A stretch of 56,722 nt of DNA from Armatimonadota bacterium (GTDB taxonomy: Bacteria; Armatimonadota; JAAZEB01), in NCBI GenBank assembly GCA_012512505.1, contig JAAZEB010000153.1:1-56722 (forward strand). Direction: 5' to 3'. A model generated the notes under the pieces. That model made no database searches. It was given only the letters and a program-made list of their open reading frames with translations, and had not been told where the DNA came from. The translations under genes were made by a program, and so were the position numbers. This document shows positions 28,478-38,028 of the stretch, piece after piece (the stretch's first letter is position 1; each line of letters begins with the position of its first letter).

Positions 28478-31400
28478 TCACGCTGCCTGGGGCACGTCCT
28501 CCAGGCGCACTGAGACGACGCGGGAAACGCCCTGCTCCGACATGGTAACGCCGTAGAGGACATCCGCAGCCTCCATGGTTGCCTTGTTGTGGGTGATGAC
28601 GATGAACTGGGAACTCCCGGCGAACTCGCGCAGGAGGGCCGAGAACCGCACCACGTTCAGTTCGTCCAGCGGGGCGTCCACCTCATCCAGCAGGACAAAG
28701 GGGCTCGGCTTGATCTTTAGCAAGGCGAAGAGGAAGGCGGCCGCCGTCAGCGCCCGCTCGCCCCCCGAGAGCTGGAGCAGGTTCTGCGGCTTCTTGCCCG
28801 GCGGCTGCACGATGATCTCCAGGCCGCTCTCCAGCACGTCCTCTTGATTGGTCAGCCGGATAGAGGTGGTGCCGCCGTTGAAGAGGCGGGTGAACACTTC
28901 GGCGAACGCCTCCCGCAGTTGCTCCAGGGTGCGCAGGAAGCGGTCGCGCGTTTCGGCATCGATCTCGGCGATGACGCGCAGCAGGCCTTCGCGGGCGTCC
29001 ATCAGGTCGGCGCGTTGGGTGGTCAGGAAGCCGAGGCGCTCTTCCAGGCGCTGCACTTCCTCGATGGCACCGAGGTTCACCTCGCCCATGGCGGCCATCT
29101 GGGCGCGGAGCTGGCGCAGCTCCTGGCTGGCCTGCTGGCGGTTGCGGATCTCCGGGAGCTGGTCCGGGGCCAGGCGGCTTACCTCCTCGGGGCTGAGGCC
29201 ATGCTGCTCGTAGAGTGCCGTCTGCGCGTGCTGAATATCCGCTTCCACGCCGGCCAGCTTCACCTCGGCGCGGTGCAGCTCGTGCTGGGCCGCCGCCAGG
29301 CGATCACGCGCTTCCTTGGCCTCCTGCTCCGCCTTGCCAGAGGCTTCCAGCAGGCGGCGGCGATCCTCGCGGCGGTCGTCCAGGTACTGCTGCGAGCGCT
29401 CCATCTCGGTGGTCAGCCGCCCCAGTTCCGCTTCCTGCGCGGCGATCTCCTCCTGCAAGGCGCGCACCCGCTGCGCCCGCGCCGCCATCTCGGCGCGCCG
29501 GCGCTCGCTGTCTCGCTGGATCCCCTGCTCTTGCTGGATTGCCCGCGCCAGGTTCTCGCGCTGGCTCTCCGCCTGCTGCCGCGCCCGTGCCGCCGCCACC
29601 TTCTGCTCGGAAACCGACTCCGCCAGGCGCTCGCGCTGCCGGCCCAGCTCCGCCACCTCCGCGCCCCGGCGCTCGCTGTCGGCATCGGCACCCGAATCGC
29701 GCGCCTGCAGCTCGGCAACGACGGCACGCAGCCGGGCCTCGCGCGCCCGCGCCTTCTCCACGTCGGCCGCCGTCTGCTCGATGCTGTGCTCCACCCGGCG
29801 CCGCTCGTCGGCCAGCCGGCGCGCCTCCTGGCCGGCATAGTCCAGATCCTTCTTCGCCGCCGCCAGGGCCGAGGTTGCCTTCGCAGCCTCGTCGCGCTGG
29901 CGGCGCACCTGGGCCTCCGCGGCGCGCAGCGCCGCCGTCTGCGCCTCGCCCTCCTTCACGAGTTGGGCAAACTCCTGCTCGAGGCGGCCCACCTCTTCCT
30001 GGAGCGCGGTCATCTCCCGCCGCCGCGCCAACAGGCTGCTGGCCCCCCCGTTGGTACGCCCACCGGTGAGGATCCCTCGCGGGTGGAGCAGGTCGCCCTC
30101 CAGGGTAACCGCCCGGAAGCGGGCGTGGTCCAGCGCGAGCACCGCGCGCGCCTCCTCCAGGTGGCGCACCACGACGGCGTTTCCAAGCAGAGCACGCACC
30201 ACGGCGTCGTGGCCCTCGGCGTAGCGCACGTGGTTTATGGCGCACCGGGCGCGCAGCTCCTCCACGACCGTCTCGGCCGGAGCAGGCACCGCCGCGTCGG
30301 CGACGATGAAGGTGGCGCGTCCACCCCCCTCGCGGCGGAGGAAGCGCACCGCCTCGCTGGCGTCTTCCAGGCTGCCGGCCACCAGCGCGTCCACGTCGTC
30401 GCCCAGCGCCGCGTGGATGGCCGCCTCAAACTCGGGCGCCACTTCCAGCACCTCGGCCACCGGCACGAAGCGCCCCTTCAGGCGCCCCTGCTTGACGGCG
30501 CGCAGCACGGAGCGGGCGCCGTCGCGGTAGCCCTCCAGCTTGCCCTCCAGCTCGCGCAGCGTGCGCAGGCGGGCGGCACGGGCAGTGATCTCGGTGCGCA
30601 GCTCTGTCAGGCGCTGGTTGCGCAGGTTGATCTCGCGCTGCAGCGTGGCGCGCTCCGCCTCGCGGTGCCGGACCTCCGCGGCAAGCTGCTCGCAGCGCGC
30701 CTCGGCGTCGGCCACTTTCGCGCGGAGGTTGTCGCCGCGGGCTTCTTGCGTCTCCGCGCGCGCCGCCAGCAACTCCAGGCGCTGGGCCGCGCGCGCCGCG
30801 GCCGCTTCCAGCTCTTCCACCTGCCGGGCGGCGGCACGCACGTCGGCCTCGGCGTTGGTCAAGGCGCGCGCCCGGGCCACGGCTTCACGGCGCTCCTCCT
30901 CGGCCGCCCGGGCGGCCTGCGCCAGGCGCTCGCTGAGGGCGGCCAGCTCCCCTTCGCGCCGTTGCAGCTCCTCCCGCGCCGCCTGCTCCGCTGCCTCCGC
31001 CGCCGCGATCCGCTCGGAGGCCTCCTCCTGCTGGCGTCGGCACGCCTCCAGCGTCCGCTCCAGCTCGGCGATCCGCCCCGCCTCGTCCGCCTCCCCTGCC
31101 TGCAGCGACGAGAGCCGCTCGCGCGACACGCCCAGGGCACCGCGCGCGCGCTCCACCCGCTGCGACGCGGCCGATGCCGCCGTGCGCGCCTCATCGAGGG
31201 CGGCATCGGCGCGGGTCACGGCAAAGCGCGCCCCCTCCGCCTCGCTCTCGATGCGCGCTAGCTCCGCCTGAATCGTCTCCACCCGCGTGGCGGCAACCAT
31301 GCGCGCCCGGCGCACCTCCTCCACCTGCTGCAAGGCGCGGCGGTGCTCCGTCAGCAGCAAAGCCCGCTCCAGGGCCTGAGCCTGGTCGCGCACGGTGCGG

Positions 31401-32044
31401 TAGCGGCGGGCCACCTCCGCCTGCTCGCGCAGCGGTGGAAGCTGCCCCTCAATCTCGCTGAGGATGTCCGCCACCCGCGTCAGGTTAGCCTGGGTCGCCT
31501 CCAGCTTGCGCGTGGCGTCGCGCTTGCGCACCCGGTACTTCTTGATCCCGGCCGCCTCCTCCACCAGCGCCCGGCGGTCCTCCGAGCGGATGGAGAGGAC
31601 GGCGTCGATCTCGCCCTGCCCGATGATCGAGTAGGCGTCACAGCCCACGCCGGTGTCCAGGAACAGCTCCGTAACGTCGCGCAGGCGGCAGGCTACCTTG
31701 TTGATCAGGTATTCGCTCTCGCCGGAGCGGAAGAGGCGCCGGGTGATGGTGACCTCATCGAAGTCGAGGCTGAGGGTACGCGATTCGTTATTAAAGGTGA
31801 GGGAGGCCTCAGCGAAGCCGAGCGGCTTGCGCCGGTGAGAGCCGAGGAAGATTACGTCTTGCGACGAGAGACTGCGCAGCGAGCGCATGCTCTGTTCGCC
31901 CAACACCCACTGGATCGCGTCGGCGATATTGCTCTTGCCGCTGCCATTGGGGCCAACAACAGCGGTGATGCCGGGGAGAAACTCCAGTTCGGTGCGGTCG
32001 GCAAACGTCTTGAAGCCGAACAGCTCTAGCCGCTTCAGGTGCAT
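28478..32044 (-). CDS. smc: Chromosome segregation protein SMC
   Basis: An 1188-residue, full-length SMC ATPase. The head has Walker A GPNGSGKSNIADA (residues 31-38 P-loop), the hinge lies near residues 500-660 (ALGDDVDALVAGS; LHPRGILTGG), and two long coiled coils rich in Glu/Arg/Ala flank it. The C-terminal head has the signature LSGGERALTAAAFLFA and Walker B PFVLLDEVDAPLDE. It would form the condensin ring with ScpA/ScpB, which are not in this window. ATG 32044 follows AAAGGTG. The long open frame on the opposite strand is a shadow of the biased codon use in the coiled coils. Confidence 0.97.
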   Translation of the reverse strand: MHLKRLELFGFKTFADRTELEFLPGITAVVGPNGSGKSNIADAIQWVLGEQSMRSLRSLSSQDVIFLGSHRRKPLGFAEASLTFNNESRTLSLDFDEVTITRRLFRSGESEYLINKVACRLRDVTELFLDTGVGCDAYSIIGQGEIDAVLSIRSEDRRALVEEAAGIKKYRVRKRDATRKLEATQANLTRVADILSEIEGQLPPLREQAEVARRYRTVRDQAQALERALLLTEHRRALQQVEEVRRARMVAATRVETIQAELARIESEAEGARFAVTRADAALDEARTAASAASQRVERARGALGVSRERLSSLQAGEADEAGRIAELERTLEACRRQQEEASERIAAAEAAEQAAREELQRREGELAALSERLAQAARAAEEERREAVARARALTNAEADVRAAARQVEELEAAAARAAQRLELLAARAETQEARGDNLRAKVADAEARCEQLAAEVRHREAERATLQREINLRNQRLTELRTEITARAARLRTLRELEGKLEGYRDGARSVLRAVKQGRLKGRFVPVAEVLEVAPEFEAAIHAALGDDVDALVAGSLEDASEAVRFLRREGGGRATFIVADAAVPAPAETVVEELRARCAINHVRYAEGHDAVVRALLGNAVVVRHLEEARAVLALDHARFRAVTLEGDLLHPRGILTGGRTNGGASSLLARRREMTALQEEVGRLEQEFAQLVKEGEAQTAALRAAEAQVRRQRDEAAKATSALAAAKKDLDYAGQEARRLADERRRVEHSIEQTAADVEKARAREARLRAVVAELQARDSGADADSERRGAEVAELGRQRERLAESVSEQKVAAARARQQAESQRENLARAIQQEQGIQRDSERRRAEMAARAQRVRALQEEIAAQEAELGRLTTEMERSQQYLDDRREDRRRLLEASGKAEQEAKEARDRLAAAQHELHRAEVKLAGVEADIQHAQTALYEQHGLSPEEVSRLAPDQLPEIRNRQQASQELRQLRAQMAAMGEVNLGAIEEVQRLEERLGFLTTQRADLMDAREGLLRVIAEIDAETRDRFLRTLEQLREAFAEVFTRLFNGGTTSIRLTNQEDVLESGLEIIVQPPGKKPQNLLQLSGGERALTAAAFLFALLKIKPSPFVLLDEVDAPLDELNVVRFSALLREFAGSSQFIVITHNKATMEAADVLYGVTMSEQGVSRVVSVRLEDVPQAA

Positions 32045-32237: not shown

Positions 32238-32522
32238 CTACGCCTCTCCCTGGAGCCCGCGCGGCTCCAGGACGAATCGGATCCCGGTCTTGGTGCCGTC
32301 ATCCGTCTCGATCTTGAAGAAAGAAGGAACCGAGATGAGGTCAATACCATTGGGTGCGACATAGTCGCGCGCGATGGCGATCGCTTTCACGGCCTGGTTG
32401 ACGGCACCGGCACCCACGGCCTGGACGCTCACACCCCCGTCACGCCGCACCACCGACGCGATCGCTCCGGCCACCATCTTGGGCGACGACTGCCCCGAGA
32501 CTTTGAGGATCTCGCTATCCAT
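32238..32522 (-). CDS. spoVS: Stage V sporulation protein S (SpoVS)
   Basis: A 94-residue protein with the highly conserved SpoVS core: LKVSGQSSPKMVAGAIASVV, QAVGAGAVNQAVKAIAIARD and ISVPSFFKIETDDG. The fold is Alba-like and nucleic-acid binding is suspected. Despite the name it occurs in many non-sporulating bacteria. ATG 32522 follows AGGAGG. It is preceded by about 530 nt of non-coding sequence with its own promoter (33058-33086). Confidence 0.93.
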   Translation of the reverse strand: MDSEILKVSGQSSPKMVAGAIASVVRRDGGVSVQAVGAGAVNQAVKAIAIARDYVAPNGIDLISVPSFFKIETDDGTKTGIRFVLEPRGLQGEA

Positions 32523-33051
32523 ACACTCGCCTCCTGCTGTGCTTAGGGTCTCCAACCCGACGACCACTTCGCGCCCCGCCCCACGCCGCAGCGGCACCAG
32601 GCGCCAACCGGCACCGCCCTCCGGAGGCATACTGATCGGCCCCAGGGGCAGGGGGTACGCGTGCAAGGCAGTTCCAGCGAGGGCAGGCTGCACGGCGAAC
32701 TACACATCGATTACCCGCGCTGCACGGGAGTAGGGACGTGGATAAGCCGGCTGCGGTCGCCACAAAGAAGTAACCACACCCGTGCCTCCGGCGTAACGCT
32801 GACTGGCTGGACGACGGCGCGTAGGAACGTTACCCATCCCCCGTGGTTATCGTACGCATGACCTAAGGACGGTGGCCTGGCCCCGGATTGCACTCGCTGA
32901 GGGTCAGGGGGATCCGACCGCGCGGCGAGCGTCGTGGCGTGTTCCAGACGTCTTTTGGGTCTTGGCGACGAGAAGAACATCGATCCCGCGAACCAAAGGC
33001 CACTGTGGGGGAGCCGTGCGCTCCACCAGGCGGCAGCCTGGTTCCCGGTGC
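32523..33051 (-). ncRNA. Candidate structured RNA or long leader upstream of spoVS
   Basis: No protein family is visible in any frame over this 529-nt stretch, part of the 655-bp gap 32523-33177. A TTGCCA-17-TATAAT promoter points into it. Predicted structure includes ACCAGGC-TGCC-GCCTGGT near the 5' end. Nested long-range complementarity pairs 32997-33003 with 32872-32878 (7 bp) and 32982-32987 with 32909-32914 (6 bp). It matches no RNA class I could recognise (RNase P, tmRNA, SRP, common riboswitches). The 3' end is unknown; it may stop before spoVS or be a long 5' leader. Confidence 0.35.
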
Positions 33052-33057
33052 CGTTTT

Positions 33058-33086
33058 ATTATAGGGGAATGCGGCCGTTTTGGCAA
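33058..33086 (-). promoter_or_regulatory. Sigma70 promoter directed toward spoVS
   Basis: On the minus strand, TTGCCA (33081-33086), a 17-bp spacer and a perfect TATAAT (33058-33063). It lies downstream of the MgtE-like gene's stop, so it starts a new transcript about 530 nt before spoVS. Confidence 0.75.
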
Positions 33087-33177: not shown

Positions 33178-34959
33178 TCACCCAAGCAGCCGCAAGAAGC
33201 CGGCGTAGACCAGCGGGGCGGTGATGGCCAGGAGGCTGACCACCACCGGACGGAGGGCCTCGGCTGGGTCCAGCCGCACGGCCGCCCGCGCCAGCGGCAC
33301 CAGCATGCCTAGCCCGGTGCCGATGAGCGCCATCGCCGCCGCCGCTAGGCCAACGAGCAGGCCCCAGGCAGCGCCGCCCCAAACCGCGCCCGCCAAGCCA
33401 CCGGCCAGCCCCACCGCCAGCGCCACGGGCACCGTCGCCTTCAGCTCGCCCACCAGACGAGCCCACCAGTTGGCCCGGTCTACCGCGTGCAGTGCGATGC
33501 CGCGCGCGGTGACGGCGGCGGCCCGGGCGGCGGCCTGGTTGCCCACCAGCAGCAAGAGCGGGAGGAAGAGGATCGCGCGCGCGAGGGCCGGGCCGCCGAA
33601 GCGATGCAGCACGCTTGCGCCCAGCAGGCCGGCAGTGAGTGCCAGCAGCATCCAGGGCAGGCGGTGGAAGGCGATGGCGCGGGAACGCTGCAACTGCGCG
33701 ACAGTCTCCGTCGGCGTGCCGGCGATATGCGAGACGTCTTCCTTCGCCTCTTCATCCACCACGTCGATGGTGTCATCCACCGTGACGATGCCCAGCAACC
33801 GGTGCTGCTCGTCGATCACCGGCACTGCCAGGAGGCGGTACTTGGCGATGGTGGCCGCCACCTCTTCCTGATCCATTGTGGCCGGCACGGCGATCACGGC
33901 CGCTGTCATGCTGGCGGCGATCGGCTGCTCTGGCGGACTGGTCAGCAGGCGGAACAGCGACAGCACCCCCATCAGCCGGCCCTCGTCGTCCACGACGTAG
34001 AGGTAGTAGATCGTCTCGGCCTTGGGGGCGAGCTCGCGCACGCGGGTGATCGCCTCCTGCGCCGTCAGGTGCGCCGGCAGCGCGATGAACTCGGTGGTCA
34101 TCAAGCCGCCAGCGCTCTGTTCGTCGTAGCGCAGCAGCCGACTCAGTGCCGCGGCATCCTCGCTCCCCATCCGGGTCAGCAGCTCGGTCTGGCGCTCCTC
34201 TGGGAGGTCTTGCAGCAGGTCGGTCGCCTCGTCCGGCGCCATGTGCGCCAGGATGCTGGAGGCTCGCCGGTCATCTAGCTCCTCCAGGATTGCGCTCCGG
34301 GTAGCGGCATCCAGGCCACCCAGCGCCTCGGCGAGCGTCTCGTCGCTGAACTGCATCACCGCGGCGGCACGATCCTCGGCGGAGAGCTGGCCCAGGATGC
34401 GGCTGATGTCTGCCGGATGCAGGCGTTCCAGGCGGCTGGAGGGCACCGAGAGGCGCACATCGGCACCGCGACCGGGAATAGACTCCACGTAGTTCCAGGG
34501 GATGAGCGCCTCCGGGAGCGTGCGCCCGGCCAGCCGCTCTAGTCCCAACCGCCGCAGGATCCCCCGCCCGCTCACATCCACGCCCACCACCCGCAGCTCA
34601 CCGCGCGCGAAGACGAGCCGCAGGTCGTTCACCTTCACCACGCGGCGGTCGTGCGTGTCCACCAACTGCCGGTCCAGCACCTCCGCGCGCAGCAGGATCT
34701 CCCCCTCGCGGAGCGGCAGCGCCGCCGCCTCAGCGGCCGGGGTCCGCAGCCGCACCTGGCGCTCGCTGGCAGCGCCGACGCTGGACCAGGCAAGGCGCAG
34801 TGTGGGGGCGCCCGCACGGCGGACCACCAGGCCAACCACGGCGGGGAACAGCTCCCCCGGACGCACCACGGCATCCACCACCCAGCCGACTCGGCGGCCG
34901 TCGGCGTCCACCACGCGGGCATTGAGGAGTTGCGACAGGTAGAGCGAATCGACGGACAA
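33178..34959 (-). CDS. MgtE-family magnesium transporter with N-terminal PRC barrel
   Basis: About 593 residues. A PRC-barrel-like domain comes first (VVDADGRRVGWVVDAVV; HDRRVVKVNDLRLV). Next is the MgtE_N helical superhelix (LHPADISRILGQLSAEDRAA; DLLQDLPEERQTELL), then two CBS domains (YYLYVVDDEGRLMGVLS; VPVIDEQHRLLGIVTVDD), then about five membrane helices including FLPLLLLVGNQAAARA. This is the PRC-MgtE architecture; the PRC part is extra to the T. thermophilus protein. TTG 34959 is preferred because AGGGGA precedes it; ATG 34992 is in frame but overlaps the upstream gene without a site. Confidence 0.88.
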   Translation of the reverse strand: MSVDSLYLSQLLNARVVDADGRRVGWVVDAVVRPGELFPAVVGLVVRRAGAPTLRLAWSSVGAASERQVRLRTPAAEAAALPLREGEILLRAEVLDRQLVDTHDRRVVKVNDLRLVFARGELRVVGVDVSGRGILRRLGLERLAGRTLPEALIPWNYVESIPGRGADVRLSVPSSRLERLHPADISRILGQLSAEDRAAAVMQFSDETLAEALGGLDAATRSAILEELDDRRASSILAHMAPDEATDLLQDLPEERQTELLTRMGSEDAAALSRLLRYDEQSAGGLMTTEFIALPAHLTAQEAITRVRELAPKAETIYYLYVVDDEGRLMGVLSLFRLLTSPPEQPIAASMTAAVIAVPATMDQEEVAATIAKYRLLAVPVIDEQHRLLGIVTVDDTIDVVDEEAKEDVSHIAGTPTETVAQLQRSRAIAFHRLPWMLLALTAGLLGASVLHRFGGPALARAILFLPLLLLVGNQAAARAAAVTARGIALHAVDRANWWARLVGELKATVPVALAVGLAGGLAGAVWGGAAWGLLVGLAAAAMALIGTGLGMLVPLARAAVRLDPAEALRPVVVSLLAITAPLVYAGFLRLLG

Positions 34960-34972
34960 CGGCGTTCCCCTG

Positions 34973-35545
34973 TCAGCCGATGATGATATCATCGAGGCGG
35001 CGCTTGGGCACGTGATGCACGCCGTCGGCGTCGCGGTAGTACTTCACGTCGCCATCAGGGCCCAGCTCTTCGAGCACCACGCGCTCCTTGGGATGGCCCA
35101 GGGCAACGACGAGGAGGATTTCATACCGTTCGGGGATGGCCAAGTCGTCACGCAGGCGCTGGCGGTTGATGCTGCCGATCATGCAGCCGCCCAGCCCGCG
35201 CGACACGGCGCCCAGCAGGATGCTCTGCGCGGCGATGCCGTAGTCACAACCGAACTCCTTGGTGATCTCGGTATCGCCCAGGATCACGATGTAGGCTGAC
35301 GGGCGCTCCCCTTCCTCCGGCCCAGGCCACTCCTTCAGGTAGCCGGCCCACCCAAGGCTTTGGAAGATGCGGGCGTTGCGCCGGGGCTCGGCCGAGAGCA
35401 GGTACTTCAGCGGCTGCAGGTTGGCTCCCGAGGGAGAAAGCCGCGCCAGGTCGACCAACTCCCGCAGGGTGCCTTCATCGACCACCTTGTCTTGATGGAA
35501 GCGGCGGTAACTCCGGTTCGCGCGAATCAGATCCTCCATCATCAT
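34973..35545 (-). CDS. Nitroreductase family protein
   Basis: A 190-residue FMN-dependent oxidoreductase. It starts MMMEDLIRANRSYRRFHQD (FMN-binding Arg region), with ARLSPSGANLQPLKYLL, CDYGIAAQSILLGAVSRGLGGCMIG and LVVALGHPKERVVLEE in canonical order. Substrate is not predictable. Three tandem Met codons make the exact start uncertain; the first (35545) has AGGGGG 9 bases upstream. It ends just before, or overlaps, the MgtE-like start. Confidence 0.9.
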   Translation of the reverse strand: MMMEDLIRANRSYRRFHQDKVVDEGTLRELVDLARLSPSGANLQPLKYLLSAEPRRNARIFQSLGWAGYLKEWPGPEEGERPSAYIVILGDTEITKEFGCDYGIAAQSILLGAVSRGLGGCMIGSINRQRLRDDLAIPERYEILLVVALGHPKERVVLEELGPDGDVKYYRDADGVHHVPKRRLDDIIIG

Positions 35546-35822: not shown

Positions 35823-36677
35823 CTACTCCGTCTGGCCAGAGGGGCCGGTCGGGGTGGCGGCCGGCGGCGGTGCCGTCGGCGCGGGGCTGCCGCCGGACTG
35901 GCGCTGGGCCAAGCCCTGGATGAACGGCGTGAAGAGGTCCACCGGCACCGGGAAGATGGTAGTGGAGTTGTGTTCGGTCGCCACCTCGGTGAGTGCCTGC
36001 AGGAAGCGCAGTTGCAGCGCGGCGGGCTGGCTGCTGATCACCTTGGCGGCCTGGGCGAGCCGCTCGGAGGCTTCGTACTCGCCCTGGGCATTGATCACCT
36101 TCGCCCGGCGCTCGCGCTCGGTCTCGGCCTGGCGAGCCATGGCGCGCTTCATCCCATCCGGCAGCACCACGTCGCGAATCTCGGTGGCGGTCACCTTCAC
36201 GCCCCACGGCCCGGTGTGCTCGTCGAGGATCCCCTGGATTCGCTGGTTCACCTCGTCGCGCTTGGAGAGGATCTCGTCCAGCTCCACCTGGCCGACGACA
36301 CTGCGCAGGGTGGTTTGGGCAAACATCGAGGTGGCCGCGGCGAAGTTCTCCACCTTGACCACCGCGTCACTCGGGTCCACCACCCGGAAGTAGACCACCG
36401 CGTCCACGGTGAGGGGCACGTTGTCGCGCGTCATGCACTCCTGCCGGGGCACGTTCATGGTGATGATGCGCAGGTCCATCTTGATCATCTTGTCGATGCC
36501 GGGGATGAGGAAGAAGATCCCGGGCCCCTTTGCGCCGTGCAGCCGCCCCAGGCGGAAGATGACGCCGCGCTCGTACTCGCGCACCACCTTGACCGCCGAG
36601 GGCACGATCATCGCCGCAAGCACGATCAGCGCGAATCCGAACGAACCAATAGCTCCGAGGAGCCCGCCGTCCCCCAT
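35823..36677 (-). CDS. Slipin (SPFH/Band 7 stomatin-like protein)
   Basis: A 284-residue protein. One N-terminal hydrophobic hairpin (about residues 8-30) precedes an SPFH domain (VVREYERGVIFRLGRLHGAKGPG; MNVPRQECMTRDNVPLTVDAVVYFRV; QTTLRSVVGQVELDEILSKRDEVN) and a coiled coil (ARQAETERERRAKVINAQGE). The C-terminal tail is proline-rich. It follows NfeD in the same operon with a 1-bp gap and AAGGAGAT before its ATG. This conserved pair organises membrane microdomains and its protease component cleaves stomatin-like partners. Confidence 0.93.
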   Translation of the reverse strand: MGDGGLLGAIGSFGFALIVLAAMIVPSAVKVVREYERGVIFRLGRLHGAKGPGIFFLIPGIDKMIKMDLRIITMNVPRQECMTRDNVPLTVDAVVYFRVVDPSDAVVKVENFAAATSMFAQTTLRSVVGQVELDEILSKRDEVNQRIQGILDEHTGPWGVKVTATEIRDVVLPDGMKRAMARQAETERERRAKVINAQGEYEASERLAQAAKVISSQPAALQLRFLQALTEVATEHNSTTIFPVPVDLFTPFIQGLAQRQSGGSPAPTAPPPAATPTGPSGQTE

Positions 36678-36678
36678 C

Positions 36679-38028
36679 TCAGATCTCCTTTCTCACCTTC
36701 AGGGTGAAGCCGTCGAACCCCACCACCACCGCGTGCGTTCCGGCTGGGATCGGCTCGTCGCCCGCGTTCTCCGCGTTCCAAAGTTCGCCCTCGGCCAACA
36801 CCTTGCCGCTGGAGAGGATGTCGGTCTTTACCAGGACCAACTGTCCGAGCATCCCCTCCATGCCCGTAACGACCCGCAGCCGTTGGGCACGGAGGCCGGC
36901 GCCGACCACAAAGGCGAAGAAGAGCGTGGTGACGGTGGTCGCGGCCAGGATGAGGCGGGTGGAGACGTGGAGGAAAGGATCGGGCGTGCGCACCAGCATG
37001 AACGACCCAATCGCGAAGGCGATCGCCCCGGCGCCGGTCAGGATGCCATGGCTCGGCACCTTGATGTCGGCGATCATCAGCCCGACGCCCAGCACGATCA
37101 ACAGCAGGCCAACCACGTTGATCGGCAGGACCGCCATCGAGTAGAGCGCCAGCAGCAGCGAAGTGGCCCCGATCACCCCGGGAAAGATCGCCCCCGGGTG
37201 CTGCAGCTCGGCGTAGATGCCGACCATGGCGAACAGCATCAGCAGGTAGGCCACGTTCGGGTGCAGGATCGTATGCAGGACGCGCTCGCGCACGTCCATC
37301 GGGATCTCCTCAATCGGCGCCCCGGCGGTGCGGAGCTGGTGCTCGCCCACCCGGCGCCCATTGAGCTGGCGCAGCAGGTCGGCCCGGTCCTGAGCGATCA
37401 GGTCCACCACGTTCTTGGCGCGCGCCTGCCGCTCGGTGATCGAGCGGCTCTCGCGCACGGCGAGGACGTACCACTCGGCGTTGCGGCCGCGCTTCTCCGC
37501 CGCCGTGCGGATGGCGGCCGAGGCATCGTTGGTGACCTTGTCGCCCACCGCCTCGCCGGTTGCCCCATCTACCGGGTGGGCCGCGCCGAGGTTGGTGCTG
37601 GGGGCCATCGCCGCGATGTGGGCCGCGGCGGTGATGAACGTTCCGGCGGAGCCAGCCCGAGCGCCCGAGGGCGAGATGTAGACCACCACCGGCACCCGGG
37701 CGTTCAGCAAGCGGCGCATGATCTGGTGCGTCGACTCCAGCAGGCCGCCGGGCGTGTCCATCTCCAAGATGACGGCGGTCGCCCCGGTCTGCTCCGCGTG
37801 GGTGATCACCCGGTCAATGTAGCTGGCCACGGTGGGGCCGATGACGCCGTCGACAGTCATCACCACCACGGGCGCGCGCGTTTGGGCCGACGCGGCCGGC
37901 ATCAGGGCCAGGAGCATGAGGAGCGGCATCAGCAGCCGCACGATCTGGACAGAACGGTAAGGAGCGGCAGGCAGTGAGGACTGCCGTGCCGGCAGCCGCT
38001 CCCTCCGCTGCGCCACTGCAGCTCTCAT
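36679..38028 (-). CDS. NfeD family membrane-bound serine protease
   Basis: A 449-residue, full-length NfeD. A signal peptide (about residues 30-48, LMPLLMLLALMPAASA) leads to a ClpP-like protease domain with EMDTPGGLLEST and YISPSGARAGSAGTFI (catalytic Ser) followed by a conserved Lys region. Four or five membrane helices come next, then a soluble OB-fold NfeD domain (GMEGMLGQLVLVKTDI; AVVVGFDGFTLKVRKEI). It precedes the slipin gene, its usual substrate and partner. A consensus-like promoter at 38052-38080 drives the pair; GGAGGT precedes ATG 38028. Confidence 0.93.
   Translation of the reverse strand: MRAAVAQRRERLPARQSSLPAAPYRSVQIVRLLMPLLMLLALMPAASAQTRAPVVVMTVDGVIGPTVASYIDRVITHAEQTGATAVILEMDTPGGLLESTHQIMRRLLNARVPVVVYISPSGARAGSAGTFITAAAHIAAMAPSTNLGAAHPVDGATGEAVGDKVTNDASAAIRTAAEKRGRNAEWYVLAVRESRSITERQARAKNVVDLIAQDRADLLRQLNGRRVGEHQLRTAGAPIEEIPMDVRERVLHTILHPNVAYLLMLFAMVGIYAELQHPGAIFPGVIGATSLLLALYSMAVLPINVVGLLLIVLGVGLMIADIKVPSHGILTGAGAIAFAIGSFMLVRTPDPFLHVSTRLILAATTVTTLFFAFVVGAGLRAQRLRVVTGMEGMLGQLVLVKTDILSSGKVLAEGELWNAENAGDEPIPAGTHAVVVGFDGFTLKVRKEI

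Follow-up and report, generated by a model that had tools for sequence, protein, structure and literature searches.

One of the questions raised by this locus is what lies in the long gap ahead of spoVS, and whether it gives rise to a functional RNA. SpoVS is a widespread protein, spoVS is a sporulation-type gene and smc is a chromosome-organising gene. In the stretch of DNA that was analyzed here (56,722 nucleotides, hereafter the window, which is contig C49 of the 5.66 Mb genome, in 396 contigs, of an uncultured Armatimonadota bacterium), 655 bp separate the mgtE stop (33178) from the spoVS ATG (32522). The first-pass annotation described the gap in this size, saw no credible protein in it and proposed that a minus-strand promoter is followed by a ~530-nt non-coding tract that may be an abundant ncRNA or a very long regulatory leader. 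The gap size was confirmed, and so was the lack of a protein: alignment across the three family genomes revealed no conserved ORF in the gap, the frames are broken by gaps and end differently in each genome, and a conserved protein between mgtE and spoVS was rejected on account of these broken frames. The accompanying suggestion that the region is locally less GC-biased is weak, with a GC content of 66.0% in the gap, 69.7% in the window and 63.8% in spoVS. On the far side of the gap, the MgtE-type transporter (33178-34992) shows a weak N-terminal PRC-barrel match followed by MgtE_N, CBS and MgtE domains, and further on (35823-38028) a Band_7 (SPFH) gene adjoins an NfeD gene.

Promoter, conserved element and spacer

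The following features were assigned between the promoter and smc:

33058..33086, minus strand: very probable sigma-A promoter, with -35 TTGCCA (33086-33081), a 17-bp spacer and -10 TATAAT (33063-33058)
33040..33051, minus strand: transcript start, predicted at 33051, with the 5' block GCACCGGGAACC, identical in 3/3 genomes
32812..33051, minus strand: conserved, predicted structured RNA of ~240 nt, from alignment, model search and folding across three family genomes
32830..32839, minus strand: conserved 3' block GGAUGGGUAA, from the alignment of three genomes
32523..32811, minus strand: unconserved spacer from the RNA to spoVS, ~290 nt here, 317 nt in G001 and 163 nt in G002
32530..32535, minus strand: spoVS RBS AGGAGG, from the sequence and the alignment of three family genomes
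32238..32522, minus strand: spoVS, 94 aa (Pfam SpoVS 6.5e-35; PDB 2eh1/2ek0 5e-23)
28478..32044, minus strand: smc, with spoVS-smc adjacency in 3/3 family members

The minus-strand TTGCCA-17-TATAAT pattern, already picked out from the sequence, is the sole sigma-70-type site between 31000 and 35000 (11/12 matches; 0.2 in shuffles). Throughout the genome 54 perfect TTGMCA-17-TATAAT sites were found, or 219 when one mismatch is allowed, and the reversed pattern gave none. In 8 of the 30 such loci examined a tRNA gene follows shortly downstream on the same strand. The 54 sites against none reversed, together with these tRNA genes, indicate that 33086-33058 is very probably a real housekeeping (sigma-A) promoter. 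Its position is kept in both relatives, with -35 sequences TTGCCA and TTGCGT and -10 TATAAT. Transcription from this site would start at 33051, a position placed 7 nt past the -10, and spoVS lies ~530 nt downstream of it.

Conservation runs from the predicted +1, that is from GCACCGGGAACC (in whose alignment a gap falls at the last base in one genome, the letters being nonetheless identical), through further blocks to GCGCGCC near 32812, and past that point nothing can be aligned among the three family genomes before the spoVS RBS. The best 25-nt windows of the RNA core are 68-76% invariant in the three genomes, whereas the neutral yardstick, the fourfold sites of smc, is 45-55% identical and 30% invariant across all three. 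The blocks of the element are conserved far above neutral sites, and the conservation in relatives that had been set beforehand as the test is found for the first ~240 nt. Thus only part of the proposed ~530-nt tract stands: 33051 to ~32812 is conserved, but 32811-32523 is not. In this unconserved spacer neither a second sigma-A promoter nor a convincing terminator was found. Each of the three available family genomes, which represent three genera, has one copy of the element, always before spoVS-smc, while the gene upstream of it differs (mgtE, a divergent LuxE-like gene or an epimerase).

Predicted fold of the element

When each of the three sequences is folded singly, the same two arms are predicted:

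32986..33048, minus strand: arm A, a long hairpin with imperfect pairing and GAA on one side of an internal loop, which folds alone in 3/3
32850..32971, minus strand: arm B, with UCGUCGC/GCG-U-ACGA, GACC/GGUC, GAC/GUC and GUCYGG/CCRGRC
32891..32931, minus strand: apical arm B, with helix B5 (32931-32925/32897-32891) around hairpin B6 (32919-32914/32907-32902)

Arm B is predicted as four short helices split by conserved internal loops, followed by a variable apical stem and hairpin. Compared with dinucleotide shuffles, the arms are predicted to be more stable (Stouffer z of -5.2 for arm A, -2.9 for arm B and -3.4 for apical arm B, with boundaries that were set after the folds were seen), the whole element is only slightly better (Stouffer z -1.5) and the whole 530-nt tract folds no better than shuffles (z +0.97). 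The consensus energy of the whole alignment is ordinary.

In a hand-made structural alignment of the three sequences 112 of 117 cells are paired and 9 pairs show double-sided changes, five of which fall in one helix; in B5, 5/7 pairs are altered on both sides. In the MAFFT alignment of the three sequences most core pairs do not vary and there is no significant covariation, and pairing drops from 90% to 26-40% when the partners are slid. The apical shape recurs in 3/3 genomes, with a shuffle product of ~4e-5 under a post hoc criterion. Taken together, the models point to an element that is likely to have a folded structure, and such folding would be expected in the cell as well. A more speculative pairing is that of the GGU of GGAUGGGUAA with the 5' ACC.

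This two-arm fold differs from the structure sketched in the first-pass annotation. The nested complementary segments on which that sketch was built do exist (32997-33003 GUGGCCU with 32872-32878 AGGCCAC, and 32982-32987 GGGAUC with 32909-32914 GAUCCC), but neither relative has them at the aligned positions, and as the fold of the element they were rejected for this lack of conservation.

Identity and distribution

The Rfam check that had been recommended was run, and no family matched any of the three copies of the element. The raiA/ModT model (RF03072) gave no match to the element even at E up to 10, and raiA identity was rejected; a raiA search in 41 genomes did not find it either, a result that is weak by itself since the control was silent. 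Three further RNAs were rejected as well, each having no match to the element and its own locus in this genome: RNase P RNA (RF00010; rnpB at C2:15196-15539), tmRNA (RF00023; C387:10504-10853) and 6S RNA (RF00013; C122:6239-6420). Below the cut-off, G001 (L140) and G000 (C383:3160-3351) each show an additional, weaker match of 6S type, which may be a second 6S RNA.

Only the three family genomes were recovered by a pattern search of 291 genomes of the phylum and by a covariance model run on 397 genomes; none of 288 other Armatimonadota genomes yielded a credible match. The covariance model matched the family members at E 1e-33 or lower, and the next best match, obtained with looser filters in 39 genomes, had an E of 0.2. 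Very diverged relatives could be missed, because the first look of these searches was limited. At the spoVS loci of 27 other Armatimonadota genomes, including those with the closest SpoVS sequences, nothing rose over noise, and the plasmids and phages searched held no copy. Two pattern matches with three mismatches in the phylum were put down to chance, and the pattern matches in IMG/VR lie in apparently one viral coding sequence reading GHAYDN; five IMG/VR contigs (L132-L136) share a TGHAYDNY reading and match the best-kept 18-mer at the DNA level, which we take as coincidence. In the open literature searched no description of the element was found, and among the matches listed none relevant joins spoVS with a leader or noncoding RNA.

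The adjacency of spoVS to smc was also compared. In this family spoVS stands directly before smc, which is not the case in the other Armatimonadota smc loci examined; L085 and L093, both Bacillota MAGs, likewise have spoVS near the smc start.

Possible roles and known systems

Of the two roles proposed from the sequence, abundant ncRNA and very long leader, both stand as alternatives, but the part that is conserved has about half of the proposed length. Our preferred reading, to which we give about an even chance, is that of a family-specific structured RNA of ~240 nt that opens the spoVS-smc transcript and acts mainly as a stable ncRNA like raiA/ModT. The strong sigma-A promoter would produce this RNA as the 5' end of the transcript, and the RNA, probably protein-bound, would be released from the spoVS-smc message or read through into it, much as with raiA/ModT. 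The promoter class shared with tRNAs, conservation that sets in at +1, the long distance from its end to spoVS and the lack of an RBS switch favour this ncRNA reading.

A somewhat less probable option, though still a serious one, is a cis leader of spoVS (and smc), in which the folded RNA would be bound by a protein, perhaps SpoVS, that tunes how its own message is translated, degraded or terminated through Rho. SpoVS is assigned to the Alba superfamily, a group of DNA- or RNA-binding proteins (PMC11621453). This placement, the lack of a second sigma-A promoter and of a terminator, and the spoVS adjacency that stays while the upstream genes change all fit a leader. The promoter is the only one of sigma-A type found upstream of spoVS in 3/3 genomes, and because no intervening one was found spoVS may depend on this transcript. 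The missing terminator itself says little, since by eye the flanks of this genome's tmRNA and 6S likewise lack an obvious U-run terminator. Yet the spacer of 160-320 nt holds no conserved sequence or switch by the RBS, nothing except the RBS is conserved near the spoVS start codon in the three genomes, a common RBS-sequestering pairing was sought in all three and not found, and the element is absent at 27 other Armatimonadota spoVS loci. We see the ncRNA reading slightly ahead of the cis leader.

The remaining explanations fare much worse. A conserved regulatory region at the DNA level (operator sites) is improbable: several blocks are invariant and offer no changes by which to judge pairing, which would suit it, but the conserved stretch reaches 240 bp downstream of the start, its spacing tracks the helices and B5 is altered on both sides. 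Functionless intergenic DNA, an idea that gains from the confinement of the element to one small family known from metagenome assemblies, is contradicted by conservation far exceeding that of neutral sites and is very improbable. Equally so is a short conserved peptide, in which the best-kept block reads as PPSxGHAYDN by eye with mostly third-position, synonymous changes (GGY, CAY, GAY), as this frame stops at once (TAA) in G001 and continues elsewhere with unrelated residues, and gaps upstream of the block disrupt it.

With this element the Armatimonadota gain a candidate lineage-specific structured RNA outside the Rfam families. The element also gives a concrete test of whether SpoVS binds RNA. 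A bolder and unlikely proposal is that the RNA represents a new class and assembles with SpoVS into a ribonucleoprotein, the RNA partner coming from the 5' end of the same transcript; if true, it would tie SpoVS to chromosome organisation through smc.

The closest known system in the way it may work is raiA/ModT, a stable ncRNA whose core has two pseudoknots and which is reported mostly from Bacillota and Actinomycetota; in the candidate no pseudoknot caught the eye. The raiA motif/ModT RNA is about 210-260 nt long, has multiple helices and is transcribed from its own sigma-A promoter (PMC11706538). The candidate resembles it in all three respects, but does not match RF03072 or any Rfam family. 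With 6S RNA it would share the character of a housekeeping-type structured RNA, whereas the element is predicted to be two-armed and 6S is one long bubble hairpin, encoded here on another contig. Like autoregulatory leaders of the ribosomal-protein type, to which an RNA-binding protein binds, it would place a structured RNA before the gene of a protein from a nucleic-acid-binding superfamily, but with a long unconserved spacer ahead of the start codon. Conserved internal loops within a 5' leader are found in riboswitch leaders too; unlike them, the element matches no riboswitch family and showed no expression platform (terminator or RBS switch).
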